From assembly GCA_963965975.1 (NCBI GenBank), contig OZ014416.1, positions 5,332,001 through 5,396,000 of the forward strand: a DNA stretch of 64,000 bases, in the 5' to 3' direction. This document shows positions 36,719 through 63,419 of this stretch, piece by piece. Source of the stretch: Xestospongia bergquistia (Eukaryota; Porifera; Demospongiae; Haplosclerida; Petrosiidae). Each line of letters begins with the position of its first letter. The first letter of the stretch is position 1. The notes below the pieces were generated by a model that searched no databases, had not been told where the DNA came from, and saw only the letters and a list, made by a program, of their open reading frames with translations. Made by a program: the position numbers and the translations under genes.

Positions 36719-36817
36719 AATCAGTGGACAGCTTTACATTATGCTTCATGTTGCGCTAACACTGACATAATTCAATTACTCGTGTTATCAAATGCAGATC
36801 CTAATATATGTAACAAG
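36719..36817 (+). CDS. single ankyrin-repeat exon (+ strand)
   Basis: 99-bp exon after a (tta)n tattag acceptor and before a gtcagt donor. It encodes one 33-residue ankyrin repeat with the WTALHYA start, IIQLLVLSNADPN end and CNK. Sequence and donor type match the minus-strand ankyrin exons at 50-63 kb, so the plus-strand gene is a relative. Ankyrin repeats are protein-binding scaffolds. Confidence 0.8.
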
Positions 36818-41730: not shown

Positions 41731-42041
41731 CTATAGTTGACTCATCATTTTAGTACCAATGTCCTTTAAAGTCTTGTCAGTTTGTTCTAAAAGAAAATCA
41801 CAAATCTTCTTTAGTAACTCATTTGGGTGTTCATCATCATCTATCTGTCCTTGTAGCTTCTCCACAATTTTATCAGCCTTATCATATTTATCAGGTATAC
41901 TCTTAACTTCTTCTTTAGCACTTGTTGGCAACAAATCAGCACAGGCAAGTCTGTTAACAATACGATGAGGATTAGCATCCACAATTATATCACAAAGATC
42001 AGCAGAATGAACCCGAAGGATTTTTGATGCATTAAATTTAC
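41731..42041 (-). CDS. terminal CARD-like exon of the ROC-COR gene
   Basis: Exon from a tacag acceptor to a stop (TAG 41731-41733). It encodes a linker (FNASKILRVHSADLCDIIVD) and a death-fold domain: PHRIVNRLACADLL, KADKIVEKLQGQIDDDEHPN, LLKKICDFLLEQTDKTLKDI. It has the same order as 43793-44095 and 12823-13116, and again follows an exon ending in G (split Gly). CARD is the best match by helix order and by the 'adKiv..L' and final 'F...L' motifs. It is the last coding exon on this strand before a gene-free zone. A splice at a gtgtaagt just after the stop cannot be excluded but would not change the frame call. Confidence 0.7.
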
Positions 42042-42097
42042 CTGTATGATGAAATTAATAATATACATTATCTTTCTATACTAAATTATAAACTTAC

Positions 42098-43367
42098 CAC
42101 TAACAGTATTATTGTCCTCTGTGATAGACTTGCCAACAATTTCATCAATATCTATTTTAAGGAGGAATCAGTGTCCTCATGCACAAGTCAGCATAAAGTG
42201 ACTTACCATCAGTTTGCTTACAAATTGTGTTTTTGTCTCTATGTGTTATAACTCCTATAATAACAATATATAACAATCAATGAAAATATTTAAATATGAC
42301 ATATTTATATTATAAATGATTTCTTAACTCAATGAACAGCTAAATCAATGAAATTCCAAATAAAGATACAAGTGTCCCTATATTGCTAATTCCCTTTAAG
42401 ATTATTCACTAATTACGCATTATTATTAGCTAACTCACATACACTGTATATACATGCATATATTTATAATGATATACCTCTGATATTACTCTCTTGTTGT
42501 TCTTGAGCAAACTTCTTGGTTTCAGGCAAATCATCTAATGTTATGTAAAGGAAATATATAAAAAAGTTAATCAAACACAACATGTATTCTCTAATATTTT
42601 GTTATAAACATAATTAAGCCACATTATGTTCATTTACTTTCCAAGATAGACAGACAATTGGTAAAATACTTGTTCATGTTCAAGATAACCATATAACATT
42701 GTCTGTGTTATCATTTGAAAAGTAATGCCTTATGCTGCTACATTAGAAACATAGCATGTACATAGATAATAAATATTTTTAGCTAAAAGAACAACTAATT
42801 TGTTGTCATTACCTGAATTAAAGTTACTAACAACCTTGCGTTTGCAAGAGACAGGATTGGTTTCTGTAAAAACAGATGACATATCATATCATAACTCCAA
42901 ATACAGACCTTTTTGTAGATGTGTAGTGCTACTTTCATGTAATGAAGGAGATATTTGTTTATAATCACTACTCAGACAGCTATCATTTTCCTGTCAATTA
43001 TTATATTTTAATGTATGTCTAAAGAAACAACTTCAACTGTACCTGAAATTCCATACTCTGGGCACTGTCATTGCTTTCAACCCAATTAGTGCTTTCTAGA
43101 TCTGATTCCTCAGTAGTAATAGTAACACATGCTGATTCTACGTCTAAAGCATAAAAGTTGTTAAAATGATGTATACAGTTGTCTGTAAATGTAGACATAG
43201 CAAATGTGTGTGACATTAAAATTATGTACCTAATTGATCATTATCTGTGTTATCAGATTGTTTGAGCTTCTTTGATGTTGAATGGGAAAAAGATCTGCTA
43301 CGCTTATTGATCAACTTACCATCACTTTGTTGCTCAATTATATTTTTGTCTGTATGCGTTACATCTT
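42098..43367 (-). CDS. micro-exon cluster encoding polar linkers
   Basis: Eight short exons with good GT/AG borders: 42098-42151 (DIDEIVGKSITEDNNTVS), 42207-42254 (GVITHRDKNTICKQTD), 42478-42534 (DDLPETKKFAQEQQESNIR), 42813-42863 (ETNPVSCKRKVVSNFNS), 42909-42990 (ENDSCLSSDYKQISPSLHES), 43043-43143 (VESACVTITTEESDLESTNW), 43230-43302 (RSRSFSHSTSKKLKQSDNTD) and 43320-43367 (DVTHTDKNIIEQQSD). Several are recognisable copies of one another: 42207 and 43320 are both 48 bp; 42098 and 45312 are both 54 bp. They give a long flexible Ser/Asn/Asp-rich tether between the two CARD-like domains and may be alternatively spliced. Confidence 0.65.
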
Positions 43368-43403
43368 CTATAAATTGTAATAGAAAAATACACGTATAAT
43401 ATA

Positions 43404-43428
43404 TTAATATATATATATATATATATAT
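43404..43428. repeat. (TA)n microsatellite
   Basis: About 12 TA units in an intron. Confidence 0.9.
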
Positions 43429-43792
43429 GTACCATTATTATGTTGACACTAAATGTGTTGTAGAAAATCATTAGTATAAAGAGTATGCTGTTTTGTAAAG
43501 AAAGTATTACTAGATACATTATATATTACATGAACTGCTTCATGAAAATTAATTTGCAAAATTTATGGAGCACAATGACACATATTGTGTTATGAAATTT
43601 TGTAAGTGAATTTCTTGACTTTTAAAATTCTGATATATTAATAATTAATTTGTTATCTATTTTAGAAAAAAAATAACTTTAAAAAGCAGCAGCCATAACA
43701 TTAAAACAAAGTGTTGAACATTCTAGACTATCTAAGTTTAAGTACATTTACTAAAATCTTAAGTTAGAGTTGTACAATAATTAGAACCTTAC

Positions 43793-44095
43793 TTTCTAAT
43801 TGATCTTTAATTTTCACACCAATGTCTTTGAACACTTGGTTATACTTCAAAAGGAAATCACAAATAGCTTTTAAAAACTCAATTCCTTTTTCATCAACCT
43901 GTCGTTGTAGCTCATCAACAACTTTATTTGCAATGTTGTAAGGATCACCACTCATACTTTGTACATCTTTCTTAAAACTTAATGATATTAAATTAGCAGA
44001 GAAGAGCCAGTTAACAATTGGAAGAGGTTTAACTTCAATGGCATCACAAATATCAGCAAAATTTTCTTGAAATATTTTTGATGGATCACAAGTGC
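43793..44095 (-). CDS. CARD/death-fold exon
   Basis: 303-bp exon, acceptor tgtag, donor gtaagg. Encodes DPSKIFQENFADICDAI, then NWLFSANLISLSFKKDV, NKVVDELQRQVDEKGIEFL, ICDFLLKYNQVFKDIG. No stop, splice phase 1 at both ends, with a Gly codon completed by exon 44176-44245. Three more residues than the 12.8-kb copy. The phase 1-1 exon can be skipped or duplicated without breaking the frame, which fits the three copies in the window. Expected role: homotypic interaction with other CARD proteins. Confidence 0.7.
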
Positions 44096-44175
44096 CTACA
44101 CAATTTAATAAGAAATGGAAATGGACTGAATTATCACATATGTGTAGTGTTTATTATATAACTGTCTGATATTAC

Positions 44176-44245
44176 CTTGTTGTGTAGTATCATTAGGGAG
44201 AGTCTCTGCTTTGTGCTCACTTGATAGTTCATTAGTAGAGTGTTG
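44176..44245 (-). CDS. 70-bp linker exon
   Basis: Acceptor caatag, donor gtaata. Encodes QHSTNELSSEHKAETLPNDT then TQQ. Same length and phase as the exon at 13257-13326. Confidence 0.65.
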
Positions 44246-44249
44246 CTAT

Positions 44250-45300
44250 TGGATACAGGATATAAGTGATGATATATGAGGTGTAAAGTATTTTATTATT
44301 ACAATTCTCAAGATTGATGATGTAACTGTTGTTTACATTATTGCTAAGCCTGGAGGTAAGGAATTACTATTTAATTATGAATAATACTCATTGTCACATA
44401 GAGAAATTATATATCTATCCATGTCAAGTTAAAAGATGCATTCCAGAACCCACAACCATAAAGAACACTTCAGAGGTGTGGCTACATAATTAGTGATATG
44501 ACTGCTTAGTTGACTTTGGTCATGTTGAGATGCACACTTGCTTAATGCAAGAGACTACTTTTTGTACTATCTGCAGCAAATCACATTGATTGAGATCTCT
44601 CATCTTGCCAGTCAATATTGCACCAGATACTTTTTCTTATTAAGCTAGTGAGCTTATATTTGACAGAAAGCAAATGAACTGGTTATCAAAAAAGTCCTAA
44701 TTATTACTAAAAGAAACTATTTATATTAATAGCTACTCACCAACAAGAGGAATTAAAGAGTTATTATTGAATTGCTGCTAATAGCAATAGTATAATATCA
44801 AGTAAGTTTGGGCTCTATAAGTATGCACTGCTTTTGAATTTAAAAATACTACAGGTTAAAGTTTAGTTGAAATATGTTACTGTCATAGCAATAAATCATC
44901 TGTAATATTACTTATTATAGTTATTTTATAATATGGTGAGGCATGTTAAGTGTATCTCATCATATTCTTAATAAACTGAATTTGTGATTAACTATAATTA
45001 ATATAATCTACTATTTAAAATGATAAATCATACTTGATGCTCCATTGATAAATTGTCAGTAATAAATACTTCACATGAATTAGTAGTACATGATTCCTTA
45101 GCACATTCTATAGAATATTGAATAGAAAGAGTTGACAATAGTTACAATATAATTGTTATATAACATGTACATTCAACTATATGTAATATGTGAACAGTTG
45201 GAAAAATAATTATTATACAGTCAATATTTATTTGGAGAAGTCTGTTCTTTAGAACTGTACTTGTAATATAATAATATAATGACATCACCTTTATACCAAT
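44250..45300. other. intron, partly duplicated from 13.3-13.8 kb
   Basis: The first 540 bp match the flank of the 13-kb copy (tgatgatatatgaggtgtaa and following). The rest is AT-rich without an exon. Confidence 0.55.
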
Positions 45301-45311
45301 TACAGACTTAC

Positions 45312-45587
45312 CACTAACAGTGTTATTGTTCTCAGTGATAGGATCACTAATGCTTTCATTAACATCTATAATAATTGTGAAGGGAATAAAATAATTTGTC
45401 ACTTATGAATCATCGTATCATTTTGTACAGGTTAAATGATAATGTAGCTTACTATCAGTTTCCTCATGTGCCATAACTCCTAAAAAGTTATAGTAAGATG
45501 ATGAACATATTACATACTAGTGCATATATGTACCATTATTATCATGAGATCTAGAAGATATTTTTCCAATAACTTCACTGTTACTAC
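45312..45587 (-). CDS. three micro-exons after the death domain
   Basis: 45312-45365 (DVNESISDPITENNNTVS), 45453-45479 (27 bp, GVMAHEETD), 45534-45587 (SNSEVIGKISSRSHDNN). Good donors (gtaagt, gtaagc, gtacat). The first repeats the 42098-42151 exon (both 54 bp, ending ENNNTVS/EDNNTVS), the second is a shortened relative of 42207-42254. They link the death domain to the first CARD-like exon. Confidence 0.6.
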
Positions 45588-46162
45588 CTATGATAAAAGA
45601 TAAAATTAATACAAATACAATTATAGCTTGAAATTGAAACTTTGTCCACTTTATTTCTCTTTATTTTACCACAGGTAAACATTATAATTACCTCACATTC
45701 AACATTTCATTGTTATTTTCCATGACAAATACTATGGTTTATTAATTTTAATATTTTAATACATAATGTGGACTTCAACACTTTGGACTAAACAACCAGT
45801 GGATTTTTGACTACTTCCAACTGACAATAATAAATGTGTAATATCAACTTGAAACTTCTTTATCTTATTGTATCAACTTAACAACACTTTACTAGATGTC
45901 AAATCCTCATATTATCTGTGTAACAATCTATACTGCAAACAGAGCAATTGGTTTCCAACTAATCGTGTCACTCAGTTACTGTGATTATGAGTGTAATAAT
46001 CATAGTAACTAATAAAGAGATTTTATTAAACATTTATAAAGAGAGGACAAAATTTCTCCTAAATTAAAATGATCTCTCATATGGCCAACATGTAGTGAAG
46101 ATTGAATTATTATGCAAGCAGCCTATATATTTCAAGCAACTAAAGATCATATGACCACTTAC

Positions 46163-46477
46163 TTTGAGTATCCTGTTGTGCAGAGCTTTTTGCTTTCAAG
46201 TACTCATATATCCTCATAGCTCGAGTTATGTCCTGAACAAGAGGTCCGTTTATAACATTCAAAATGGTATTCCAAGTGACAGGAGCACCTTCACCTTGAC
46301 CATTCATGTCAAACCATTTCTGAATAACGTATTCAAGTCTTGTTTGATCTGAATCACTGCGTTGAGCCATACCATGAAGGTCATTGAAACTCACTCCAAG
46401 ACCTTGACCAATGTTTCTCCATCGACTATTGATAAAAGCTAGTTGGGTTAAAACTTCATATCTTTTAGGTTTTTCAT
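46163..46477 (-). CDS. death-domain exon
   Basis: 315-bp exon from a ctcacag acceptor to a gtaagt donor. It encodes a full death domain: KRYEVLTQLAFINSRWRNIG, GLGVSFNDLHGMAQ, LEYVIQKWFDMNGQGEGAP, VTWNTILNVINGPLV, AMRIYEYLKAK. The conserved W-x-x-IG, the LGV, the W of helix 4 and the tW..il..i of helix 5 are all present. Lies between ROC-COR and the CARD-like exons on the same strand, so the protein is of the ROCO-Death type as in DAPK1-like architecture, but without a kinase. Paralogous relics at 17316-17552 and 34692-34865. Confidence 0.9.
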
Positions 46478-46673
46478 CTGTGAGTAGAATATGATAAAGA
46501 ATTGTCATATAAGTTTGCCTAAAATATGGCAACTAACTACTAGCTACAATATGACAATATATAACAATTACAGTAATCAAATATAAAAGTAGCAGATATA
46601 AAACAAGAAAATTAAAAAAATAAATAATAAATTATTGAAAAAATGACATTTTCTAGACTTGTAGACATACCTC

Positions 46674-46863
46674 CAATATTGTATGTAATAGATGACGACA
46701 TCTGTTTGTCAGGTTTTGTAACAATGTTAGTAAATTCTGCAAAACATCAACTAAGTCAATACAAGAGAATACTGATATAATTAGAACCTTTTGTTGTTCT
46801 TGTCTGAACATGTTTTGATAATCTTTGTATTACTTCATCTTTCATTGGTGGAGAAGGTATACT
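46674..46863 (-). CDS. two short exons joining COR to the death domain
   Basis: 46788-46863 (SIPSPPMKDEVIQRLSKHVQ then TRTTK) and 46674-46738 (FTNIVTKPDKQMSSSITYNI). Both have acceptor AG and donor GT (gttcta is weak; gtatgt is good). They connect the exon ending GRNPL at 46926 with the death-domain exon. Confidence 0.6.
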
Positions 46864-46925
46864 CTATGTAGAGAAAATCCAAATTTCATAGACACATTGT
46901 TAAGAGAAAGTGAATGTAAACTTAC

Positions 46926-48995
46926 CAAAGGATTACGTCCAGCAAAAATACTAAATTTATTGAGATGTTCTCGTACAGAGAGTTGGGTAAAATCTGAGTA
47001 TGGATAGAAGAACATGATCTCCCCACATACTTCTTGTATATGTTGGACATAGTGATCTGGTAGTGGTGGATCTTTGTTGCTGTCTGTAAAGAGAGTTTTG
47101 ATCACAAGAGGGGCAATATAGAGGTATGGTTCCTTTTCACCAACAACTAATTGGACATTAACTCTTTCATTATTAGTTGATGTAGCAGTTCCTTTCACTA
47201 GTACTCCTTTAGCCACTTCTTTTAGTGCATAGACAACACGATCTTTCTGTTCCTTATCCATGATATCCTTAATGTTACCAGGTGCAATAACAAACTGTTT
47301 TGAAGTACATGGACATAATTCTTTTTTAAGATTAAGAATTTCTTTGATGAGTGATGCACGAAGTTGATAACTTTCAATTAAATTGCTGTGAGACACAAGA
47401 ACTGTAACACATCGGTTGGCTTCAGTAACCTCAACCATCACTTCAATATTATTCTCCTCCTCTCTCCAATAAATACCACTTTTCCACATAGTACAGACTC
47501 GATGCAACTCTTGGTTCTCTTGAGTGTGTACAACATATCCTCCTTTCTCGGGAGGAGAAGGACAGTAAGTATAAGCAAAGCGATGGAGAAGAGTGTGAAG
47601 AAAGCGCATGGAGAGAAATTGTTGTGGTACATCACACCATAAGCACCAACCAAATCCATCTGTTGTTTCAAAGATTGAAGTGGGCTTGTCTTCTGTAATA
47701 AGTGCAGGAAAGAATAAAAACATCTCATCTTTACCAATAGGGAAGTCATCACATGCTACATTGTTAGTAATACAAGAAACTGTGTAAGAGTCCATTTCAT
47801 GGCAAAATTGTAGACTAGTTAAGAAACGAATCAACATATCTGTATTATGTTTAGGGAAAAGGTTAGCTAGAGTAGAGACAGGCATTATACCAGTATTACT
47901 GGCAACTGGTTTACGCTCACGATCAATGGTTTTATTGAATAAGACACCATTTACATCAGTTAAGAGAGCTTTTTGGTCAATAATTACCCATGCATTTGCC
48001 AGAAACAAAATTAGACCTTTGCTTCCAAGAATGGTCAAAAACTCCAATACTATGGATCTATCTGTCAAAAGACAAGGTTCATTTAGTTTCATTAATTGGG
48101 GACAAAGTTCATCTAAGCTAATGGCTACATCATCAAGCTGTTGAAGATAAGAATTTAGACAGTGGCAGTGGTAGCTCATCTTATCATATCTGTCCACAAC
48201 AGCTTCACAGCTCTCTTTTAATTTCCTCATACATTCTTTCACACCTTTTCCTCCTGGTCGATGACAGTCTAAGGGTAAAAACCCTTTGTAATTCTGAAAA
48301 CGAACAGCCATACTTGTTACATCATTTACAAAAGGCTGGAAGTCTTTTTCACTGGACAATTCATCAATATGACTTCCAAGAACAAGTACTTGACTTGGGT
48401 TACTTAATTTTGTGCTCACATTTTCAACAAAGTTAAACCAGAAAAGAAGTTCTTTCTTAATTGTCTCCTCATCATCAGTAAGGTTACTTAAAATTGCAAA
48501 AACAGCTGGTGATCTCAACAACAGAGCTTCCAGTACTGCAGCATGGCTACTATAATATTCAGCATGTCCAGCAAAATCAAAAATTACAACATTTCCTATT
48601 TCATTGCTGTGAACACTGTGGTACTCAATTCCGGTGGTTTGTAATATAACATCTTCTACAAATTTTTCTGGATTATATTCATGAAAAGACCACTTGTCAG
48701 CACGATAAGAGATAATAGCAGCCAATGAACTTTTACCAGCTTCTGTTTTTCCACATAGAAATATTTTGGCATATGACTCTGTGAGATAGTCTCCTTGACA
48801 TTTTTTGAACGGCTGAAACAATTTTAGTAATTCAAATCTATTACTGTTAGATGGTGGAATACAATCCAATGGCATTTGTTGATCATTGTTTAGTGCTACT
48901 CGATGATCTGGATTTAGCTGGTTATTATGTAAAAGGTAGTGTATGGTTTCTTTATTGCCACTTCTACAGGCTAAATGTAGTAGATTATTGTCATT
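46926..48995 (-). CDS. large exon: ankyrin end, ROC GTPase, COR-like region
   Basis: 2070-bp exon, acceptor tttag at 48996-48998, donor gtaag at 46921-46925. The start encodes an ankyrin repeat (NDNNLLHLACRSGNKETIHY) up to 48876. Then from the Met at 48875: P-loop GKTEAGKSS (residues 42-50), G3 DFAGH (about 99), G4-like SHIDE (about 168) typical of ROC rather than NKxD, then a long region after residue 230 in the position of COR, ending EPYLYIAPLVIKTL and FAGRNPL. ROC-COR tandem GTPases dimerise and act as signalling switches; with ankyrin repeats before and a death domain after, this is ROCO/DAPK-like without kinase. The intact 690-residue frame argues for a live gene. Full assignment to a named ROCO subfamily is not possible from this. 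Confidence 0.88.
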
Positions 48996-50620
48996 CTAAA
49001 AATTAAATAATGAAAATGATTTAGCAACTATATTGTTGCAAGTAATAGAATATATTATATATCATGGCTAACATTATGACATAAACAGATAAACTTTGTT
49101 ATATATATATATGTTTCATAAACATGATCCATAACAGAAATCAAATAGTCTTTGCCATTATTGAAAAAAAGCTGACTTTCACATTTTAAAGTATTAGGCA
49201 TGAAATCTTTACATTCTGGATCAATATTAATTTGAAAAAGGAGTATTGAACATTATTAGCTCTGGAGATTAAAGTGTTTGTGTGTAACAATTCCACAGAA
49301 CACTAGAAGTGAAAATTGTAGCACTGAAACTTCATTATTTTGCAAGTTCTATTTAATTTCCTCCTTCCTTGTATATTTGTTCAATTTCATATCAACACTT
49401 TGTCTTTCATTTAAACATTCATTAAAACTCAGAACACAAAAGAAAAGAGATAAGGAGATCCTCACTAAGCAGTTGTTCTAACATGTTTACTCTATGTAGT
49501 GAACACTATGTATGAGGAGACCAATTACTGTTTTTCATAGATAAATTCAATGATATTAAGCAAGTTATACTACATTCATTTAGAACAGTTAGCTCATAAA
49601 TAACCAAAAAGAAACAATGATTCACTTGAAGTAAATGTACTGCCATATTACTAAGTATTATATCCAAGTAATTAACTGAATTTAATTATTATTAGAAAGT
49701 CAGCAATGAGGTTCTAAGCTTTAGATTTAGTTTATGTACCTATTTTGTCCAATGTAAACAGATCTATGAGTGACACTCACTGACAAGGCAGAGTCAAGAA
49801 GAACTAACTTATTAATTCATGCAATACTATTTATCATTTATACTAATGACAGCCAAATAGGAGATGTGACTAATACTATGAGAATGACAGTCCATGCTAC
49901 TTCATTTTTGCAGATTTTTAGACAGTAGGATATTTTATAGTGAACCAGATATGATAAAATTTACAATTTTCTAATATATCATGTGAATCATGATTGTACC
50001 TAGAAATAAACAAAGGTCTTCGAAACATTTCAATATGTTTCTACCTGAACTTTGAAATCAGTACAATATATATGAACTTTCAAAGAATCCTATTATTTAA
50101 TTATAGGAAAATCAATGAAGAATGCATTCTCAAATTATAAAAGAGGGCCAAAACTATTGAAGCGACAAACAGAGAGGCAAGTCACAACAGCGTACACAAC
50201 TGTTTACGTGAGTCATGTGGGGGGGGGGGGGGATTAATAAAGAGAACATAGCACATATAATTGGTAAGCAATTAATTATTCATAATTATTAATTATGTAA
50301 TCATTAAATGATTATTGTCATTGATCAATTTAGCAACAACAGGCTATATTTTACAGGAGAAGCCAAAATTTAAGAGATAAAAGAAATCTGGAAAAAAATC
50401 CATTCTTTTGTATTGTCAACATATATCATAGTTAGTATGTTTGTTGTACTTTTACAACTGTGAATGAATTTGGATTATTGTTCTTGGAATTTTTTTGTCA
50501 AAACATGTTTTTTAAATATTTGAAATAGTGGGCAGTCTGGGTATGATACAGGTTTGTATCATTTTTAAGTACCACATGTCATATTTCACAAGGAATATTT
50601 CATAAATAACTATAATGTGA
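48996..50620. other. intron with G14 run
   Basis: AT-rich intron. Contains a run of 14 G at 50219-50232. No extra ankyrin exon recognised. Confidence 0.6.
50219..50232 (+). repeat. poly-G homopolymer, 14 G
   Basis: Fourteen consecutive G, unusual in this AT-rich setting. Could form G-rich structures, or be a length-variable sequencing artefact. Confidence 0.9.
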
Positions 50621-50625
50621 CTGAC

Positions 50626-50727
50626 TTTGTCTAAAGCGTTGATATCAGCTTGCCCTACTTCATGTAATAACTTTAAAATTTCAAAATGACCCTTTTGAGC
50701 TGCATAATGTGCTGGTGTTTGTCCAAA
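50626..50727 (-). CDS. ankyrin-repeat exon
   Basis: 102 bp, acceptor ctag, donor gtcagt. Reads FGQTPAHYAAQKGHFEILKL, LHEVGQADINALDK: one repeat with TPAHYAA, GHFEI and ADIN positions. The last separate ankyrin exon before the ROC exon. Confidence 0.85.
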
Positions 50728-50832
50728 CTAGAAAAAAATGAAAATTATTTAATTATAAAAATTACATCAACAACATTCTATATCTATTAAATACTGATTT
50801 AAATCTAGTAACAAGACACAATATGCACTGAC

Positions 50833-50934
50833 CAACTTGTCACAAATATTGGGATCTGCATTGAAGTTTAATAGTAACTGTATGACATCATAGTGACCTC
50901 CATCTGAAGCAAGATGTAGAGCTGTTTTCTGAAA
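50833..50934 (-). CDS. ankyrin-repeat exon
   Basis: 102 bp, acceptor ctag, donor gtcagt. Reads FQKTALHLASDGGHYDVIQL, LLNFNADPNICDK: canonical TALHLA...G....VIQLLL..ADPN. One exon equals one repeat. Confidence 0.88.
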
Positions 50935-52035
50935 CTAGAATAAATACACAGGTATATAATGTTGATTATTATATAACATTAAAAGTTCATTAGAATATTA
51001 TATTACATATCTATGATAAAATAAACGACATATTAAAGTCAAAACAAATCAAAATTGTATAAAATTGTCCTAAGATGCTTTTGATTGTGTTGGTAATTGA
51101 AGTCATTTCTCTATTATTGAAAACTGGATATTTTTGAAGTATTAATGATAAAATGATATACAAGTATTAAGGGTAGAAGCTAAATTTAAAAGACTTTTCT
51201 CAGGGTTAAATCGCACAAGGCTAGGTCTTTGAGTAATCATGCTTAGGGTGAATCAAATGCTGGTTAGACGAGTAAATTAAATGAATTGTTGTTAAATGTG
51301 TCTGCAGATGTTTCACACAATTAAATTCATTCAATGCTTTAATACATACACACACACACACAAATATATATATAACATACCAAAAATGGACTTTGGCTTT
51401 CCATACTAATACAATCCAAAATAACTTTATAATAGTCTACCATGGAAATTTGTCACTGAATAAAAGTTATTTTCTATTCTTAATGATTAGAGAGAACTTG
51501 GACTACATTATTATGTTTATACAATTATTACTATATATAATAATTGTAATACCTGGTAAGAAAAAAAGGGATGAGTAATGCTTTGACATTTGGATCATAA
51601 CTATCATTGCCACACCAACTTTAACACATACCTCTTTGTAACACTCACATAACATTAAGTTTAAATTTGATTTACATATTCAGGGATATGACACTCCTTT
51701 GTACCAATATTAAAATGGGAGTGACTTACAATTGGCTACACTTAAAGTTCAGACTTTTGGGTGGGATATAGTATAAGTATTTGAAAGTGTAATATAACAC
51801 TGATAAGACCACTGTGAATATCAAGATGATTTCAAGGACATTTACTACTAATATAACAGGCCACACTGAGTGATAGCTGCCAATGACTTCATTTGTTAAT
51901 CTTTACTAACAAAATATTTAAACATCATGTCAACATAGAAATTTTTAATAGCCACACTCATAACATTATATATCTATTAGATAATGATTTAAATCTAGTA
52001 ACATTTACTAATGTTTGTACACAATATGCACTGAC

Positions 52036-52134
52036 CAAGTCACAAATATTGGGATTTGCTTTGGAATTTAGTAGTAGCTGTATAATATCACAGTGACCTC
52101 CTTTCAAGGCTATATGTAGAGCTGTTTTCTGATT
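52036..52134 (-). CDS. ankyrin-repeat exon
   Basis: 99 bp. Reads NQKTALHIALKGGHCDIIQL, LLNSKANPNICD. Same splice sites as the neighbours. Close in sequence to 52709-52807 and 50833-50934, so recently multiplied. Confidence 0.88.
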
Positions 52135-52708: not shown

Positions 52709-52807
52709 CATGTCACAAATATTGGGATCTGCATTCAAATTTAAGAGTAGCTTTACGATATCACAGTGACCTCCTTCCAAGGCTAAATGCAGGGCTGTTT
52801 GCTGATT
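52709..52807 (-). CDS. ankyrin-repeat exon
   Basis: 99 bp, acceptor ctag, donor gtcagt. One canonical repeat (QQTALHLALEGGHCDIVKL, LLNLNADPNICD). Confidence 0.87.
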
Positions 52808-52849
52808 CTAGAGGAAGTACACAAGTATTTCTCATTAATTATTAAAAAT

Positions 52850-53430: not shown

Positions 53431-54081
53431 ACCAAATTTATTTTCCAAAATGTTTATTTTATATTGATTCTCCAATATTTCTCACTCTAAAATTACTCAT
53501 TATATGGTATTACAGTATAGGATGGCAATAAGTAACAGTATAGTAATTGTAACACATGCATGGTCTGATAGGGATGAGTAATTTACTGTAATACTATGAT
53601 ATTTGAAAGAATACTAGACTCATTGCATTCGTAAAAGAGGCTTGAGTGTTACGTCTGTGAATACTTAGATACTATAAAGTATTATCTGGTTAGTACTAGT
53701 TTACAAATTAAAGAGGTTCCAAAGATTGGATGAATGGAATTTTATTAATAGAAAATAGTGATGCCACTTGTGGGCTGACATTCACTGACTATTATATTAT
53801 CATTTATCAAAAGACAAAGGTTATTTCAAGAAATTCAAGTCCAATAGTTTACAAAAATGCCACAGTTTTCTGCTTAACTACACTTTTGTAATAGTACACT
53901 TTAGTAATAGTTTGTAAATAGAAAAGATAGATTAAAACTGCTTTCTAAATGAAACATGAGTAGATGGGACTAAAATCTCTTGAATGTCTGTGATTGATCT
54001 TATTTGTTATAGAATATAATACTTTAAAAGTAAACACTAACAAACAACAGTAATTTATTATTATTTTAATCAGTTATTAAC

Positions 54082-54180
54082 CTTCTTAGGATGATGAACA
54101 TTGACATTAGCACCTAATGTAAGTGCTTGAGTTACATTTTCTATATCACCATTTTCAGCTGAAGTCAAAAGTAAGTTATC
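54082..54180 (-). CDS. ankyrin-repeat exon (second type)
   Basis: 99 bp, acceptor aacag, donor gttaat. Reads DNLLLTSAENGDIENVTQAL, TLGANVNVHHPKK. Looks like the start of an ankyrin run (LL.sA..GD...V...L..GANVN). Duplicate of 63084-63185. Confidence 0.82.
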
Positions 54181-54324
54181 CTGTTAAAATAAATAATATA
54201 TTATAACTGTGACATGTACCCACATATAATTAGGTCATTTTTATAATATATCATAACATGTAAGATCAATATGTCCATATTATTATAATTATACAGTAAA
54301 TATATTATTCTGTTTATCACTTAC

Positions 54325-54426
54325 ATTTCTAACTTGGTCCATATCTTTTGCTCCAAAAGAATGTAAGATCTTAACAATGTTATGATGACCATACCAGTAT
54401 GCTATATGAAGTGGAATATGTCCCCA
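54325..54426 (-). CDS. ankyrin-repeat exon
   Basis: 102 bp, acceptor ctatag, donor gtaagt. Reads WGHIPLHIAYWYGHHNIVKI, LHSFGAKDMDQVRN. Duplicate of 63318-63419. Part of the duplicated cassette. Confidence 0.82.
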
Positions 54427-56760
54427 CTATAACATGAAATAGAGTTTTAATAATAATAGATTAAATTGTAAAGTGGACATACATAGATATATATGTAATA
54501 CACTTGATCTATAACAATCATAGGATTGATAAGGTCTATTCTATATAAGGATACATTAATGTATAATATATGTATTGCATAAATTAGACAAATGATGTCT
54601 GAGTAAATAACAAAGTTTATTAAACTAAGAATATAGTACTAATATATGGCTCATAACAACTGAATATAACACATGGACTGGAGCTCATTATATATAATAA
54701 CTTGCAATGGGAGATTGTGAACACAGATATAAATACGGTAATAAATATGGTAAGTAAGCAAGGAGCAGTATTTGTTGTATCATATTATGGTTCAGCAAAT
54801 GTAGTAATAATAGATGAAAATATGATGGATATTAGGTAAGTCAATCCAAACCTATATGTAAAATAGTTTGAATAAAACATTCAATGACAAAAAGTTATGA
54901 TTTTACATACTGTAGTATTCTTTTCAAGTGTTATTTTTCTTTACTCAAAGAAGACCAATTTTGATATCACTGTATAGCTTAATTAAACCAGTCATATGAA
55001 CAATAAGAAAATTCTATGTCATATTAAAAGATGCAACAAAAAAATAAGAACTTTATTTGTCACACCTACAGGTATTTATTGTAATATTGCATTATGTGTA
55101 AGGTGTTAACTTAAAAATCCTTGTCACATTGGAATTGATCTATATCTTGTCTTACTAGACAGGTAGTACTACATATATGAATACATATAATAGAGACAAC
55201 AAATAAAATACACAAACTATACACAAAATAAAATCTACTACATTGTCTGTGATTTTGGTATATACAGACAAACACACATTATTGTAATCCACACATACAC
55301 ATATTTTGTAGAAACACAAATACAAATAATTATGATTTGTTTTAACCTCATATAACTTGCTACATGTATAAGCTTTTGTCTCATCATCTTGTATCTTTTA
55401 TCATTTAGCCTTTAAGCAATCATGCTATATGGCTGAAACGGTGGTAGGAAGAATAAACTAAGTTCATTAGTTGATGAGTGGACAGGTAGCCATTACAAAA
55501 AGTTAAATTTTATTCAAAACTTTTAATACTCATATATATCTTTAAAGTAAAATACAAAAATGGACATTGATGTTTCATATAAACATAGTCCAAAAGAATC
55601 TTATAATTGTCTAGCATATAAAGTGTACTAGTGAAACATAATGACTACAAATATACTGTAGAGTGTACATATATTAAATAATTTGTAAAATTTTAGTTAT
55701 AAGAAGGAACTGGGACTACTGTATTATATTAATACTACTATTGGTATAACAATTGTCTACACCTGATCTGAAATGAGAGTAACACTCTGATATCAGATTA
55801 TATCTACCAGTAACTATATACCATTTCTTATCAACGTACATCTTAATAACATACACAAACTTCCAAGTTTATACTTCATTTACTTGTCTAGTGTATGCTG
55901 CTTCCTCTGTCTCAACATTAAAATTGGAGTGGCTCACTAATGGCTGTGCTTCTTGTGCACAAGAGTTTAGAGTTAAGATTTTAGGTGGAGTGTAGTAACA
56001 GTATTAAATTATACATAGTATAATACTGATGATATTACTTCCACAATGATCAAAATATTTTGACACAAACAGTACACATACTAGTTGTACCACCTCCATG
56101 TATATCATGATGTTTTCAAGGATATGTACATTTTAACAAACCACACCTACTGATAACTGCTCCTGTCTATGCTTTTAATCTTTTATGAACAAAAGATTTT
56201 AAAACAAGTCAATATAGACATAAGAGATAATGCAATTGCCATACCTGCAATTTTGTTTGCATTTTTGTATTGGACTGATATTACCCATCGCTATATTAAT
56301 GTTATATTTTAGAAAATAGTGTTATTTACTTTTTGGGTTACTTTTAAAAATGTATATGTAAGTGATTTTGATAATCAAACACAAAAGCTATAACATGCTA
56401 GAAGATAATGAGTTTCACACCAAAATATTTACATATATTGTCACTGGCTTTTCAGTCATGCAGTAATGATCGTAGATCTTGAACATCAAAGTAGGAAATA
56501 GTCAATAATAATTGCTAGTAGTGGGAGCCTAGGCTTCAGTTTAGCTATATATATTACAATGAAATATAATTATCTGTTCTCATTCATTTCTTTCTTTGAT
56601 GTTACTTATTCAAAAAATGGCTTCTTAAGAGTAGCTTTTGATAGTAATAATAATACACTAGTATTGATAATATTATCACAATGGTCACAGTAATATTGAT
56701 ACAATAATGTGAGAGAGTACACAGTACACTCACTCTAATAGTACACCAAAAACAAAAAAA
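54427..56760. other. gene-free stretch left of the retroelement
   Basis: AT-rich DNA; no ankyrin exon or other domain found. The first 400 bp resemble the flank beyond 63420 (duplication continues). Confidence 0.45.
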
Positions 56761-56786
56761 GGGAAAGTAAAAAAAAGAGAACCATG

Positions 56787-59700
56787 TTAATGAGCCACTC
56801 TTCCTTCAGAGAGGGCCCGGTCCAGTGAATTAATGTTAGAGAAAATAGGTCTATGATATGAAGAGCGAGCTCCACGTAAACATAGGATAGTAGATCTAAG
56901 AAGGGAAAAAGACAATCGACAGCGGATCCAGTTCAGGATAAGTGAATAGGGTTTTTTATGGTGGTCAGACAAGTTAGAAGCTAAACGTTTGTAAAAGGTA
57001 GTAGCTGCAGGTCCCATCCCACCAGCAGTTGTGAATACCAGAGGTGTGAAAGTACCATGCTCAACTATGCGAATTCTAGAGTCATACTGTCTTCTCTTCT
57101 CTTGTTCATTTCTCCTGTGGGATGCTTTAAGGGTTGATCTAATGTAGGTGGTGGAGAATGGATTATAAACCCTAACATCAAAAAAAGCTCTATCAGATGG
57201 AGACCAGACATTAGAAGCAGCTATATCCACTCGAGCATTATCTTCTGTATTGCTAGATTGGTGTGATAATTGTTCCCCAGTGAGTGGCTGAAGAGGAGGT
57301 TCAATTAGAACATTTGAGCTTGTTTCAGTCAATAGTTCAGCAGTTATATTTCTCAGCTCATTGTGACGAATGGAAGGGAACCCGCCACACTTACAGTTCA
57401 TGGCATGGTCAATACTAAAAGAGGAGCCACATATGCAATGAGAGGGAAGATGAGGAGGGGTCCAACCATATCTAAGAGAGATGGCATCTATAAAAGCTCC
57501 CTTATGTAAGGCAAAACCGTGTTCAACTATAGGCAGAGCTGTAAGCCATGAAGAAGTACCTTTCTCACTAGCAACCACAAGACACCGTTTCAGAGAGGGA
57601 TCAGAAAAGGACTCATACAAATTAGAAAAAAGTGTATTAAAGTGAGCTCGGTGGTTTGATTTCACTTTGTTTCTTCGTATCTGTGACTCATATAGAAGTG
57701 TAAAAATTGGAGTCTGATTTCTCATGACAATTGATTCCACAATGGGAGAGAGGATGGAAATTGAGTCATGGTATTGAGTATCAGCTTCTCTAATTGGGTT
57801 AGTTAATCCAAGGCCTCCTAAGCGTGCAGGAAGAGAAAAAAGGGAGCGTATAGAATCATTGACAGCATTCCTACCCGTCAAAATGGGAATCAATCTCCTT
57901 CTCAGACAATCTTCCACAGGGTGAATGTGTTCACACACACCAGGTGTAGTACGACAAAGATATACAATTTTATTGAAAAACTCGTGAGTTAAGGCAGAAT
58001 ATGAAGAATGTGGTTGAGTTTGAGCTACAGTAGTGAGTTTCTCTAGCTGCGACACCCACTCAGAGATCTTATCTTTAATAAAGTTAGATATAAAATGTTC
58101 CGATCCTATTGGGCTCCCAAGGTATCGATGACCCTCAGATGTAATATTGATATCTATGTCAGCAAACACAGAATGGGCAGTTTCCTCAAACTCGGGTTTC
58201 ACTATGAGCCAGGACTTAGTGGGATTTGCATAATATCCAAATAAAGGACCATGACACTGAAGCTCCTCCCACCAGGATCGTATTGTAGACAGCTTTCCCA
58301 AGGCTGCAGCATCATTTTCATACCAGACTTGGTGGACTGAAGGTTGATTAAGATGATGGATGAGAGGGAGTATCCCTATTGCATACATAACCATCGCTAA
58401 AGGGTCTCCTTGTGTTGTTCCTTCTGATGAGAATATAGTATCATCATCAATGAATAAGGGAACATCAGATCGATAGCAATTAGTTAGAATTATTGCCAAA
58501 GATGGACAGAGATTGTGTATATTTAGTAGAGCTGCACGTCTGTTGAGCAAGTTAAATGCATTCCTCGCGTCAGCGAGTAAAACAGCCTCACATTCTGCTG
58601 ACTCAAATAGGTGTCGAATAGCATGAATCTCAGCCTCACAGCCTTCAGGTTGGCCAGCACAAAGCTGTTCACATCCTGCCACTTCTAGTACATCATGCCT
58701 AACAGCCCGAAGTACTGCCTTACCAATAATGCGACGAACAACCTCACCAACTCCTATTAGGCGTACTCCAGGACACTTGTCTATAGCAATCAATCTACTG
58801 GCAAGGAGTGGGTGAAGACCAGCTGGGTCTATATAGGAGATACATATTCGTTTTGTCAATGAAGCGAGAGCAGAGCATAAGTCAGCTGAAGAGGATTGGA
58901 ATGAGGTACATAATTTTCTCCAAGCAGCAGCGTCAAGTCCTGACGGACCAGAAGAACCATTAATTTTCAGCGCAAGAGATCTAATTAACTCTGGGGAGAT
59001 GGAATCAAATAGAACAGAGTGAAAGACATCAAGGGTATGTGAGGACACAATGGTAGATGGATGAGGGGGTTGAGCAGGAGGATGCTTTTCTAATAGTATC
59101 TCTTTCACTGACTGATCATCGATCATGGTATCCAAAGAGTGAATACCAGTACTTTCATTATCAGATAATAATGTAATTGCGGCATTCACATTTCCTACGA
59201 ACATTAGATTGGAGAATTTTCGGGAGAGGTTATCTGAATTTTTTGTAGGATGAGTAATAGTGAGACGAGCCTGAATGGCACGACCTTCCTGAAGTAAAGA
59301 AGCCAGATCTCCACTCAGCCAAATGGTTAGACGGCGATCAAGGAGCCTGGAAAGTTCTTTGGCACGTAGTTTACCAGGAGGCCTTTGTAGCAGGGGAGAA
59401 GGCATTATCATAGCAGCGTATAAAGCAACAGATTCAAGAGCAGAGGAGTCTGAGTATGCTTGAAATAACTTGGCTTGTTCACGTACAAAGGAAGCGCCAA
59501 TCTTTCCACAAGGAACTTTGAAAACATTCCTTCTCCAGTGAACAATCTCATCATAGCAGGACTTAACAAGAGATGAGAAAGATTCACCATCGATGTCATT
59601 CCACAAAAAGTTCGGTTCAGCCATTGGCAAAAAATCAGCGAAATCAGGGACTTTATGAGAGCCGCACGTGCTCGAGCCACAAAATAGCGACATAGTCCAA

Positions 59701-60017
59701 GAGGACGATCCACAGGCAGGAGTCTCACCGTAAACGCTCTCCCTATCTGAAGAAGATGAAACAATGGAGCAAGGAGACGCAAGGTCAATACATGGAGAAG
59801 CCAATATGTTCCGGTTCGGCGTCCGCAGAGAAGACTGATCTATCGTCGAAGGAACAGTATCAACATTGGATGAATTCAAGGGATTAAGGCAGTGCCCATC
59901 ACGACCAGGTAGGCAGTAGAAGCAGGCACGACCAGCTTTAACACAGGCACAACCCTTACACAGGCCTCTGTATCTACTGCACCTACAGCACACCATTTTT
60001 TTTTTTGAAGATGTCAT
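56787..60017 (-). mobile_element. non-LTR-type reverse transcriptase ORF, YEND active site
   Basis: Single uninterrupted ORF from ATG 60017 to a stop at 56787, 1076 residues. An earlier in-frame TTG adds 19 residues and is not needed. N-terminus: a Cys-rich cluster (CRCSRYRGLCKGCACVKAGR ... CFYCLPGRDGHC, residues about 9-36). Then an RT domain: motif A LLADARNAFNLLNR, about 500; TTQGDPLAMVMYA, about 532; WYENDAAALG, about 564, where the family has YADD. C-terminus: a CxC...H...C zinc motif (CICGSSF...DHAMNCKCGG, about 859-878) and a segment ARVDIAASNVWS ... RAFFDVRVYNP that could be a PD-(D/E)xK-type endonuclease, as in R2/NeSL-like elements. GC content is higher than the flanks. A 3' tail of only about 30-50 bp and no clear target-site duplication were seen. 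Confidence 0.85.
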
Positions 60018-60230
60018 GAAGCTTTTGATAGTAAACTGCTGAGACCATTTTTTTGGTTGATTTCTAAAAGGCAAACTGTTGTAGTTGAGTATGCTACCTT
60101 TGTGATTTTGGTGTCAAAACTGTTTATGGTTATTAAATTACTTGCACTATAAAGCAGCAGAGGCAGAGGCAGAGGCACAGACAGAAAGATGAAGGAATTC
60201 AAGATTGACCAAATATGTCAATGATCTGTG
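60018..60230 (-). other. 5' leader of the reverse-transcriptase element
   Basis: Includes a poly-A/T run before the start (60000-60008) and, at about 60151-60180, a short gaggca-gaggca repeat. The element's 5' border could not be fixed. Confidence 0.4.
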
Positions 60231-60468
60231 ATTTTTAGAAACTTTGTCTTAACCAATAACTGATTCATAGTTAAGGGATTTTTATGGAAAGGAGTATTGC
60301 ATGAATCAAAATTGATCTGTTTTGAGTGATATATTCATTATTTTCTGCCAATAGATTTGAATGGATAATCCAGGCCATTCCTACATAAGCACCATTATCA
60401 TGTACCTCATAAAACACTGATTTAAATAGTGCAGCATGTAGTTGTCACTACACATATTATACACTGAC

Positions 60469-60567
60469 CTTATCACAAATATTGGGATCTGCATTGGAGT
60501 TTAACAGTAGCTGTACAATATCATAGTGACCCCTTTTTGAAGCTAGATGTAGAGCTGTTTGCTGAGA
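60469..60567 (-). CDS. ankyrin-repeat exon
   Basis: 99 bp, acceptor ctag-type, donor gtcagt. Canonical repeat (QQTALHLASKRGHYDIVQL, LLNSNADPNICDK). First ankyrin exon beyond the retroelement. Confidence 0.87.
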
Positions 60568-61269
60568 CTAAAAGTATGCAAATACTTTTCACTAATCATA
60601 ATAGAATTAAATTTACTTAGAACAATAATATATAGCAATGATAAAATAGACCAAATATTAAATTTTAAACAAGATTAACTTAATAATAATTGTGATAAGA
60701 TAATTTGGATTGTGTTGATATTGTAATTGTTTCTCTACCATAGAAAATTGGAGATTTTAATTAGTTATGATAAAATGATATAGAAGTCTTAATGTTATGT
60801 GTTGAAGAAGCTATAAATGTAAGCTCTTTAGCTTGACAGCTTAACCTGAGCCCTTCAGTAGTCACACTATTTTTAACCACACTTCTAATTAACACCAGAT
60901 AACTTAATAATAACACATGGGGTACCATCTAACTGTCTTTAAAATGAAAATTGGTTTGTGTGGTCTTATAGTACCAGTGTAGTGTAATGCTGACAATACT
61001 ACTCATATATCAGAATGTGTTAACATTAAAATGACTTGACATACTAGTGTGAATACCAAGATTCTTCCAAGGATGCCTACAATTATAACAAGCCATACCT
61101 ACTCATATCCTCACAATGGCGATCATACTTAAAACTTTTTAGGAAATGATTGAAAGAACAAGTTTATGTAGAAACCTCTAAAAGCTACACACATAAGATT
61201 CTATATCTATTAAATATTTGATCTATATCTAGTAACATGTAGTAATCTCTACACACAATATACACTGAC

Positions 61270-61368
61270 CTTGTCACAAAAATTTTGATCTGCATTGTAG
61301 TTTAACAGTATCTGTACAATATCACAGTGTCCTTTTTCTGAGGTTAGATGCAGAGGTGTTTTCTGATC
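61270..61368 (-). CDS. ankyrin-repeat exon
   Basis: 99 bp, acceptor ccag, donor gtcagt. Reads DQKTPLHLTSEKGHCDIVQI, LLNYNADQNFCDK. Slight changes at ADPNI (ADQNF) suggest weaker constraint. Confidence 0.83.
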
Positions 61369-61767
61369 CTGGAGGAAGTACACAAGTATTTATTATTGAT
61401 TATAATAGGTTTAAAATTGAAAGAATATATTCAATTATACCTACAATAAAATAAATAACATCATAAGATCAAGCAATATTTATATATTAAAAATTGTCCT
61501 AAGATACCTTTGCTTGTGTTGGTATTGTAATTTTTTCCCTATTTTTAAAACTTGAGATTTGAAGTAGTTATGATAAAATGATATAGAGGTCTTATTATTA
61601 AGGATTAAAGATGTCAACTCTCTAGCTTAATTTGTTTAACATATGCTTGGCCTTTGAATAGTGATGCTCAGGCTGAGGTGCTGGTTGGAATAGTAAATTA
61701 AATTGATTGATTACTAATTGGATCAGAGGTCATTGTATGCAGTAAATTTTATTCAATGCTTTTAAAC

Positions 61768-61769
<2 letters not shown>

Positions 61770-61832
<63 letters not shown>
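61770..61832. repeat. (AT)n microsatellite, about 31 units
   Basis: Longest dinucleotide run in the window; intronic. Confidence 0.95.
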
Positions 61833-61835
<3 letters not shown>

Positions 61836-62159
61836 AAATAAAGTACAAAGTGTATATTGACATTGTATAAAGACACATTTCAAAATAATGTTAATTTTCT
61901 AGCATATAAACAAACTACATCCATCATAGATATATTAATTAATTATTTATAAATGTTTGTTTAAAAGAAGTGATAACTAATACTTTATATTTGAATCATA
62001 ATTACCAGTATTATTAATAGTACATCATATTTATATACCAGATATACTAATTAATTTGTAAAAGTGATAGGAAAGAACTGGACTACAGTACTGTATAGTG
62101 AGTATTTTGGTGAGAGAAAATATTAGCAAATTTGGCAAATTGTGTTTCATTCACCAAAC

Positions 62160-62680
62160 TGTTATCCTCAAATATTTGATTTAGTGGTGTGGTAGTAGAC
62201 AGAAGTTATTTGGCAATTTTAATTTTGCCAAAGTCTATTTTTAATTGATAATATGTGACTGTATATACAAAAAGGGACCACTTGAGTCATTTCTGTCATT
62301 TTCACATTTTCATACCATTTTAAAGTATAGATAATGCTGAATTGTTTGATACCTTGGATAAATGCATTCGTTGCTAAAGAAACAAGATATAAATGGAAAT
62401 ACAATGGCTACTACCAAAAATTAATTTTGAGAAAAGTGGAATTTAATTTCCACCCCCGCATATTGTACACTAACATATGGGAGCTTCTACGTGCTAATCT
62501 AGAAAGAACTTTGGCTTTATAAACGCTTCAAAATGACTGTCAGGTACTATTCTCTTTGTTTTTTGGTTTAACTCAAATTCCCAAAAATATTGAAATCATC
62601 ACTTTTTCTGTCCATACTGAGTTTTTTTTTTTTACTTGACAGAAGTGGTCCTTTGCGCAAATCAGGTCACACATCTCTCT
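62160..62680. repeat. intron with duplicated flank and hairpin-element fragment
   Basis: From about 62160 the sequence parallels 53400 onward (gtggtagtag, attgataat). A fragment of the hairpin element (gacagaagtggtccttt...caaatcaggtcaca) sits at 62636-62672, absent from the 53-kb copy. Confidence 0.6.
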
Positions 62681-63083
62681 CCAAATTACTAGTTATATGG
62701 CATTACAGTAATAGATTAGTGCAAGTGTACAAATATAATCATGGAAATTTGGTAAACTTGAAGTTAGGAAAAGATTGTATTAGTTGTGCAAGGTCAGAAG
62801 AGTATTGCCAAATGTCAAATAGGAACATTAATTTTGTTTTTTTCAAAGAACTCATTGTTTGTTAAATATGTGTATGATAACAACAACATAATAAAATGAT
62901 AGAGTAGTCTTATGAAAATAAGAAAAGATAGATTAAACTGTTTTCTAGACAAAACAATATCTATAAGTGTGTGGGGCTAAATATCTTGAATACCTGTGAT
63001 TGATCTCCTTTGTTATAGAATATAATACTTTAAAAAGTAATATTAACAAACAACAGTAATTTATTATTATTTAATCAGTTTCT

Positions 63084-63185
63084 GACCTTATTAAGATAAT
63101 GGACATTGACATTAGCACCTGATGTAAGTGCTAGAGTTACATTTTCTATATCACCATTTTCAGCTGAAGTCAAAAGTAAGTCTTC
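63084..63185 (-). CDS. ankyrin-repeat exon (second type)
   Basis: 102 bp, acceptor ctg/cag, donor gtcaga. Reads EDLLLTSAENGDIENVTLAL, TSGANVNVHYLNK. Duplicate of 54082-54180. Confidence 0.82.
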
Positions 63186-63317
63186 CTGTTCAAATAAATA
63201 ATATATTATAACTGTGAACATGTACCCACATATAAATAGGTCATGTTTTTAATGTATAATGATGTATAAGATCAGTATGTCCATACATATTAGTTATATA
63301 TATAATATATTACTTAC

Positions 63318-63419
63318 ATTTCTAAGTTGTTCCATATCTTTTGCTCCAAAGGAACATAAAAGATTAATAATCTCATGTTTACCCCTCAAGTATGCTAGAT
63401 AAAGTGGACTATGTCCCCA
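63318..63419 (-). CDS. ankyrin-repeat exon, most 5' exon seen
   Basis: 102 bp, acceptor gtag, donor gtaagt. Reads WGHSPLYLAYLRGKHEIINL, LCSFGAKDMEQLRN. Duplicate of 54325-54426. The gene probably continues beyond 64 kb, since no start codon exon was found to the right. Confidence 0.82.

Follow-up and report, generated by a model that had tools for sequence, protein, structure and literature searches.

The Roco family is known from human disease through LRRK2 and DAPK1. In Roco proteins, Roc-COR exchanges nucleotide or changes its dimer state, and DAPK1 carries ankyrin repeats ahead of Roc. Here we describe a predicted gene of the sponge Xestospongia bergquistia that appears to join ankyrin repeats with Roc, a probable COR, and Death and CARD-fold parts, together with the family to which it belongs. 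The gene lies on the minus strand of a 64,000-nucleotide stretch (the window; GenBank assembly GCA_963965975.1, contig OZ014416.1, referred to as C6, positions 5332001-5396000), and our searches covered the 146.5-Mb genome in 21 contigs. Three Roco groups have been distinguished, the third of which, with DAPK1 as its sole human member, has a kinase before Roc-COR plus a death domain and no leucine-rich repeats (LRR); a search of the main text of that paper for CARD returned nothing (PMC6337361). The sponge gene model has the ankyrin, Roc, Death order of the DAPK1 group (the window Death domain scores below the Pfam cutoff), with Death after Roc-COR as in DAPK1, and the Pfam model matched by its Roc carries the DAP kinase name. 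The sponge family differs from DAPK1 in adding one or two C-terminal CARD-fold domains, in having at least 62 loci, and in having no kinase noticed by eye. A preliminary description of the locus had known of no standard family with this domain order. The ankyrin-Roc-COR-Death part is the DAPK1 order minus the kinase. What appears to be new is a greatly expanded DAPK1-like Roco family with CARD tails, linked to NLRs by related modules, while the Roc-COR-Death kind was known.

Like NLRs, the sponge proteins would unite a nucleoside triphosphatase switch, a repeat array, and death folds within a single polypeptide; they form a large family, and Death modules of the two kinds are related in sequence in this genome. 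They differ from NLRs in having a Roc-type GTPase instead of NACHT and in the reverse domain order. In Dysidea avara, NLRs have NACHT with N-terminal Death or CARD, and COR is named in the legend of the NLR architecture figure (PMC12909245), so joins of Roco and NLR parts may occur elsewhere. Brown algae have 9 to 47 ROCO genes per species, said to exceed other organisms reported; their LRR-ROC-COR proteins resemble the sponge family in being an expanded ROCO family with one repeat per exon and proposed immune receptors, but they have LRR instead of ankyrin repeats, lack death folds, and are fewer (PMC11378527). The AP-GTPase-COR proteins described as switches of bacterial conflict systems, for which DAP kinase is named as the animal counterpart, likewise have an AP-GTPase (Roc) and COR flanked by fast-evolving repeats on one side and variable C-terminal domains on the other, but with LRR repeats and bacterial effectors; the large set described there from the sponge Amphimedon consists of Death-like plus TRADD-N proteins, not Roc-COR ones (PMC8195603). 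The Aplysia ROCO-TIR proteins also fuse ROC-COR to an immune signaling domain in an invertebrate, but they have TIR or LRR where the sponge proteins have ankyrin, Death, and CARD (PMC9334734). A whole-word search of a paper on Halichondria panicea found neither Roc nor COR (PMC8242945). Across a literature search that had most subscription papers outside its range, we found no ankyrin-Roc-COR-Death-CARD protein and no expanded sponge Roco family.

A predicted gene of at least 28 exons with Roc, Death, and CARD-fold parts

From 63419 to 41731 on the minus strand, 28 exons joined by script chain in phase, without internal stops, to a terminal TAG in the CARD-B exon, and all 27 introns are GT-AG when the ninth ankyrin exon ends at 50833 (Table 1). 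They comprise ten single-repeat ankyrin exons, one 2,070-bp ankyrin/Roc-COR exon, one Death exon, fourteen short linkers, and two CARD-fold exons. The exon ends were picked by eye, so phase chaining by itself is not independent proof of the gene model. Ankyrin exons are all of phase 0-0 and linker exons mostly of phase 1-1, and the latter could thus be gained or lost without a break in frame. The preliminary description had placed the ankyrin, ankyrin/ROC/COR, death-domain, and CARD-like exons and the micro-exons on one strand, with a split Gly codon ahead of each CARD-like exon; all of these are present where it put them, the phases chain, and both split codons are found. The 5' end of the gene lies outside the window and its 3' 28 exons inside. 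Sequence comparison supports a single predicted gene that combines ankyrin repeats, a Roc domain, a probable COR, and Death and CARD-fold domains. Its structure is well supported, and its function is what we infer from that structure. By-eye inspection of the frames from 41 to 72 kb, without a kinase profile, turned up no kinase upstream of Roc in the window or the next 8 kb.

The ten ankyrin exons, between 63419 and 50626, are 99 to 102 bp each. Their identity is clear by pattern, and Pfam Ank also matches within the Roc-COR exon. They fall into two similar blocks, at 63.4 to 60.4 kb and 54.4 to 50.6 kb, and the same pair of exon types opens each block. The blocks look like duplicates of each other and may both be part of one mRNA. 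In the 20 kb examined, the nearest paralogue has one such block. We also found three further ankyrin-like exons upstream of the window, at about 66.7 to 65.3 kb, which read as phase 0; one has a good score (expect value [E], 6e-7) and two have weak scores (0.1 and 0.8). The array probably continues upstream of the window.

The Roc assignment is based on profile matches and on conserved columns. With E limited to 0.01, the profile PF08477 matches 18 of 19 copies, the best of them at 1.8e-4; the window copy, at 22.2 bits, is below the Pfam curated cutoff of 27. Columns G82, K83, A86, K88, and S89, as well as D140 and G143, are invariant in all 19 copies; we take these to be the P-loop and DxxG motifs. 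About 450 residues follow Roc inside the same exon, and the COR is presumed from this position; profile searches gave no confirmation. Pfam Death matches 11 of 14 copies of the Death exon at E up to 0.1 (best, 3.7e-4), and the window copy reaches 17.8 bits (E, 0.0036) against a curated cutoff of 22.6, which places it below the cutoff.

For the CARD-like exons, we obtained an AlphaFold model of CARD-A, built from three CARD-like sequences of the window. The model has a predicted local distance difference test score of 93.9 and helices at residues 5 to 11 and 13 to 22, that is, a broken first helix, followed by five more. A broken first helix is a criterion of the six-helix CARD fold. All eight best PDB matches of the model are of CARD type: ARC (twice), CARD9, RIP2 (twice), a design on the template 1cy5, which we take to be a CARD, NLRC4, and ICEBERG. 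The best Foldseek probability is 0.98 and the best E is 0.52. As modeled, the case for a CARD fold rests on the agreement of the top PDB matches, together with Foldseek probabilities that reach 0.98. The modeled domain is CARD-A, to which CARD-B is 45% identical. A TAG directly follows CARD-B in 19 of 20 copies.

The Roc-COR exon has at least 62 loci in the genome

Counts of homologues given here are lower bounds, with at most 150 candidates scored per search (62 of 245 for the Roc-COR exon). We found at least 62 Roc-COR loci, the window's included and four on contig C13 partial, of which 38 lie on C6 at 2.6 to 8.1 Mb and the others on C1, C13, C7, and C3. Within 12 kb downstream on the same strand, and with the window locus counted, a Death exon is present at 37 of the 62 and a CARD-like exon at 45. 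The corresponding control counts for Death and CARD-like exons are 1 and 0 upstream, 4 and 5 downstream on the opposite strand, and 0 and 1 upstream on the opposite strand. When seven redundant or partial C13 copies are dropped, Death is found downstream at 34 of 55 loci and a CARD-like exon at 42 of 55, with each control class at 1 or below. In compact copies on C3 and C1, Death is spliced in frame to a CARD exon (introns of 201 and 156 bases), and these joins are the best evidence for Death and CARD in one gene. At C6:7.64 and 2.63 Mb, exons resembling L1 to L3 by eye lie between Death and CARD.

The loci differ in their tails. Among the matches listed, 34 of the 62 loci have Death with one CARD type (A at 24, B at 10), 9 have A but no Death hit, and 1 has Death alone. 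Two have Death with both A and B: the window and the paralogue nearest to it, at C6:5.26 Mb. A further A-then-B pair, at C6:7376482 and 7378542, has no Roc-COR hit among these matches. By sequence, one CARD is the usual form and two CARDs the exception. We therefore reject two CARDs as a hallmark of the family, and the single new protein with two CARDs that had been proposed becomes one of at least 62 loci.

At C13:3.41, 3.63, 3.82, and 4.03 Mb, four units of almost identical sequence are spaced about 190 to 220 kb apart. Each consists of a plus-strand Roc-COR, Death, and CARD-A set and a partial minus-strand Roc-COR copy, and the partial copies are 96% identical to the window over residues 1 to 407. 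These units are a segmental duplication or an assembly repeat.

Selection and possible exchange among copies

Pairwise ratios of nonsynonymous to synonymous substitution rates (dN/dS) were calculated by script with the Nei-Gojobori method and are given as medians over copies. In the true frame, they are 0.34 for Roc-COR, 0.58 for Death, and 0.42 for CARD-B, compared with 0.78 to 1.14 in shifted frames, a sign of coding constraint. When Roc-COR was divided into 23 stretches of 30 columns, dN/dS peaked at 0.81 at columns 91 to 120, between the P-loop and the invariant TTG of the presumed switch I. Within Roc, columns 99 to 112 are hypervariable (median dN/dS, 0.93), and the other stretches of columns 61 to 240 have values of 0.14 to 0.29. 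The change at columns 91 to 120 may be relaxed or diversifying and is not proof of positive selection.

Similarity between the window and its nearest paralogue is uneven: the exons from e13 to CARD-A are 97 to 100% identical, Roc-COR is 90% identical, and the ankyrin exons are 73 to 92% identical. A 5.6-kb block of 95% identity lies beside these ankyrin exons, a patchwork that resembles the outcome of gene conversion or unequal exchange.

Related Death modules at NACHT loci and a wider Roco repertoire

The genome has 95 NACHT matches, none of them on the window's contig. None of the 62 Roc-COR loci has NACHT within about 14 kb, and none was found on the six window exon frames scanned. Using all 150 Death places, we found that 14 of the 95 NACHT loci have, on the same strand and no more than 4 kb upstream, a homologue of the window's Death exon (34 to 52% identity), compared with 1 downstream and 0 on the opposite strand. 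Related Death modules thus appear, by sequence, N-terminal to NACHT and C-terminal to Roc-COR.

The COR-A profile gave at least 148 matches at E of 0.01 or below (150 of 171 candidates scored), often in tandem clusters (C10:1.4-1.7, C12:5.39-5.54, C15:1.09-1.71, and C2:5.1-5.3 Mb, among others). Since none of these falls inside the 62 Roc-COR exons, the genome would have about 200 Roco-like loci, a rough figure in that one gene may match more than once and some may be dead. Within 6 kb of the 148 COR-A places, a related Death exon lies downstream at 8, upstream at 1, and on the opposite strand at 1, and a CARD-like exon lies downstream at 10, upstream at 8, and on the opposite strand at 0. Seven of 13 clustered COR-A matches at C11:6.37-6.47 Mb have a CARD-B-like exon (74 to 82% identical to the window's) within 6 kb downstream, and this cluster may be another Roco subfamily that shares the tail.

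A candidate family of NLR-like sensors and its alternatives

We propose, with a probability of roughly 0.6, that these loci are a DAPK1-like Roco family, kinase-less as far as seen, with CARD tails and used as NLR-like sensors. The varying ankyrin array would bind a cue, and nucleotide exchange or a dimer change in Roc-COR, as in other Roco proteins, would unlock the tail. The freed Death and CARD could then seed a death-fold assembly and draw in partners that carry domains of the same kind, such as caspases, adaptors, and possibly the genome's NLRs, with which sharing of Death modules is observed, and the outcome could be caspase or kinase activation. This layout would be that of an NLR turned round, with sensor and GTPase first and the death folds at the C terminus. 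A signaling or inflammasome-like protein had been suggested for the locus; such a role is the most economical guess from the sequence. NACHT, a feature of NLR or inflammasome sensors, was not found on the six exon frames scanned. A broader form of the proposal is tentative, and we rate it somewhat below an even chance. It holds that the sponge has a second NLR-like receptor class built on the Roc GTPase, in which about 200 Roco-like loci, at least 62 of them of the ankyrin-Roc-COR-Death-CARD kind, exchange ankyrin exons and CARD tails, share Death modules with NACHT receptors, and form with them one death-fold network for recognition of microbes or of self and non-self.

Several results weigh against the proposal that these are Roco sensors with Death and CARD tails. 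The COR-A profile matched none of the 62 Roc-COR exons, and the COR-B profile matched 2 of 19 copies (best E, 0.05); genome-wide, COR-B has 11 matches, none within the family. Profile searches of PDB with the CARD-B, Death, and Roc-COR alignments found no relative at E below 0.2, and the model of Death from a single sequence was too poor for a structure search (predicted local distance difference test score, 60.2). Pfam CARD matched neither window exon, and nothing else in Pfam was credible, a result that goes against the CARD-like reading in the preliminary description. The unrelated WNK domain matched 11 of 20 CARD-B copies (best E, 0.0024), as weakly as CARD did, and the 13 Pfam CARD matches of the genome (E, 0.001) lie outside all 93 CARD-A and CARD-B rows tested. 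All Foldseek E values for CARD-A are 0.52 and above, with non-CARD entries among the matches from rank 9. Neither Death nor CARD is present, among the matches listed, at 16 of the 62 Roc-COR loci, and CARD-like homologues near NACHT (6 upstream and 4 downstream; 32 places used) follow no clear pattern. In the nearest paralogue, a 7-base gap breaks the CARD-B frame, and exons L7 and L8 were looked for in its stretch and not found; the two-CARD tail may therefore be in decay.

Pfam and PDB profile searches by themselves were rejected as too weak a basis for naming CARD or COR; the PDB profile search with CARD-B, tried as a way to name that domain, returned designed and other proteins and no CARD. 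The CARD reading is nevertheless favored despite the unmatched window exons, because Pfam CARD matches 7 of 20 CARD-B copies (best E, 0.0012) and because of the structure model of CARD-A. If so, profile searches can miss a CARD family: the 13 Pfam CARD matches compare with at least 150 related places for each of the two CARD-like queries.

At the window locus, a B-type 3' end may have been fused into an A-type gene, leaving alternative tails or a relic CARD-B rather than joint use, and we regard this as a substantial minority possibility. The rarity of Death with both CARDs (2 loci, against 34 with Death and one type) is consistent with it, as are the frameshifted CARD-B of the sole close two-CARD paralogue and a resemblance, by eye, of L11 and L12 to a second copy of L2 and L3. 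In the window, however, every junction from CARD-A to CARD-B is in frame, CARD-B is intact with the conserved stop at its end, and a further A-then-B pair exists on C6. CARD-A as the last exon was judged less likely, given a donor in phase and no AATAAA or ATTAAA within 425 bases 3' of it; one AATAAA lies 115 bases 3' of CARD-B, and this is weak evidence in that such hexamers are also present after the Death exon. It is unlikely, in our view, that the loci encode DAPK1-type cell death regulators that lost or never had the kinase and serve ordinary apoptosis or development, not the sensing of microbes or non-self. Death follows Roc-COR as it does in DAPK1 (PMC6337361), and the tails are death folds, which suits that role, but 62 loci (38 on one contig), patchwork change, and Death modules common to NACHT loci fit a recognition repertoire better than a set of housekeeping genes. 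Stops or frameshifts in some copies and the four nearly identical C13 units are what would be expected if segmental duplication and mobile elements had spread mostly dead, non-gene copies; we consider this very improbable, since 19 of 20 Roc-COR copies examined are open over about 700 codons and median dN/dS is 0.34 to 0.58 in frame and 0.78 to 1.14 shifted.

If the sensor proposal is correct, animals have built large death-fold receptor repertoires on a GTPase switch and not only on the NACHT-type ATPase, and the Roco family gains an immune branch. The origin of NLR-like systems in early animals would become testable, with related tail modules attached to two switches in opposite order. The interest is high for the family and lower for the two-CARD copy in the window.

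Features and further observations in the window

Table 1. Predicted exons and 3' signal of the window gene, in 5' to 3' order of the gene
Feature	Coordinates	Strand	Basis
ANK1 exon (WGH type)	63318..63419	-	ankyrin pattern, exon chaining
ANK2 exon	63087..63185	-	ankyrin pattern, exon chaining
ANK3 exon	61270..61368	-	ankyrin pattern, exon chaining
ANK4 exon	60469..60567	-	ankyrin pattern, exon chaining
ANK5 exon (WGH type, second ankyrin block)	54325..54426	-	ankyrin pattern, exon chaining
ANK6 exon	54082..54180	-	ankyrin pattern, exon chaining
ANK7 exon	52709..52807	-	ankyrin pattern, exon chaining
ANK8 exon	52036..52134	-	ankyrin pattern, exon chaining
ANK9 exon	50833..50934	-	exon chaining
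ANK10 exon	50626..50727	-	ankyrin pattern, exon chaining
2,070-bp exon: last ankyrin repeat, Roc GTPase (residues 77-211), presumed COR	46926..48995	-	Pfam, alignment; COR by position only
Linker exon e12 (phase 0 to 1)	46788..46863	-	exon chaining, paralogue comparison
Linker exon e13 (phase 1-1)	46671..46736	-	exon chaining, paralogue comparison
Death domain exon	46163..46477	-	Pfam, alignment of copies, exon chaining
Linker exon L1	45534..45587	-	exon chaining; similar exons by eye in other copies
Linker micro-exon L2 (27 bp)	45453..45479	-	exon chaining, paralogue comparison
Linker exon L3	45312..45365	-	exon chaining, paralogue comparison
Linker exon L4	45034..45107	-	exon chaining, paralogue comparison
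Linker exon L5	44176..44245	-	exon chaining; similar stretch ahead of CARD-A in copy L072
CARD-A exon	43793..44095	-	homologue search, structure model, exon chaining
Linker exon L6, basic stretch	43230..43367	-	exon chaining; partial match only in paralogue
Linker exon L7	43043..43143	-	exon chaining; not found in paralogue stretch
Linker exon L8	42909..42990	-	exon chaining; not found in paralogue stretch
Linker exon L9	42813..42863	-	exon chaining, paralogue comparison
Linker exon L10	42478..42534	-	exon chaining, paralogue comparison
Linker exon L11	42207..42254	-	exon chaining, paralogue comparison
Linker exon L12, similar to L3	42098..42151	-	exon chaining, paralogue comparison
CARD-B exon with stop codon, last exon	41731..42041	-	homologue search, copies, stop context
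AATAAA poly(A)-like signal 3' of CARD-B	41611..41616	-	weak; same hexamer in introns of this A+T-rich region

Linker L6 has two in-phase donors by eye, the alternative one near 43320, and the longer form adds a basic stretch that, as judged by eye, could be a nuclear signal.

The window also holds a second, more diverged relative of the gene, apparently broken, on the minus strand at 12821-13117, 17306-17590, and 17709-18156. It consists of a CARD-A-like exon (62% identical by tblastn), a Death-like piece interrupted by stops, and fragments from the tail of a Roc-COR exon. A stray ankyrin exon at 36719-36817 on the plus strand and a Death fragment at 34666-34764 on the minus strand (61% identical over 33 residues) may be remnants of additional copies. 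The intron between ANK4 and ANK5 contains an open frame of 1,108 codons on the minus strand (56787-60113). It looks retroelement-like by eye, and its identification as a reverse transcriptase was set aside, with no Pfam match at E of 0.001. Frames that resemble it by eye lie upstream on the other, plus strand, at about 68.5 to 69.0 kb in window numbering.

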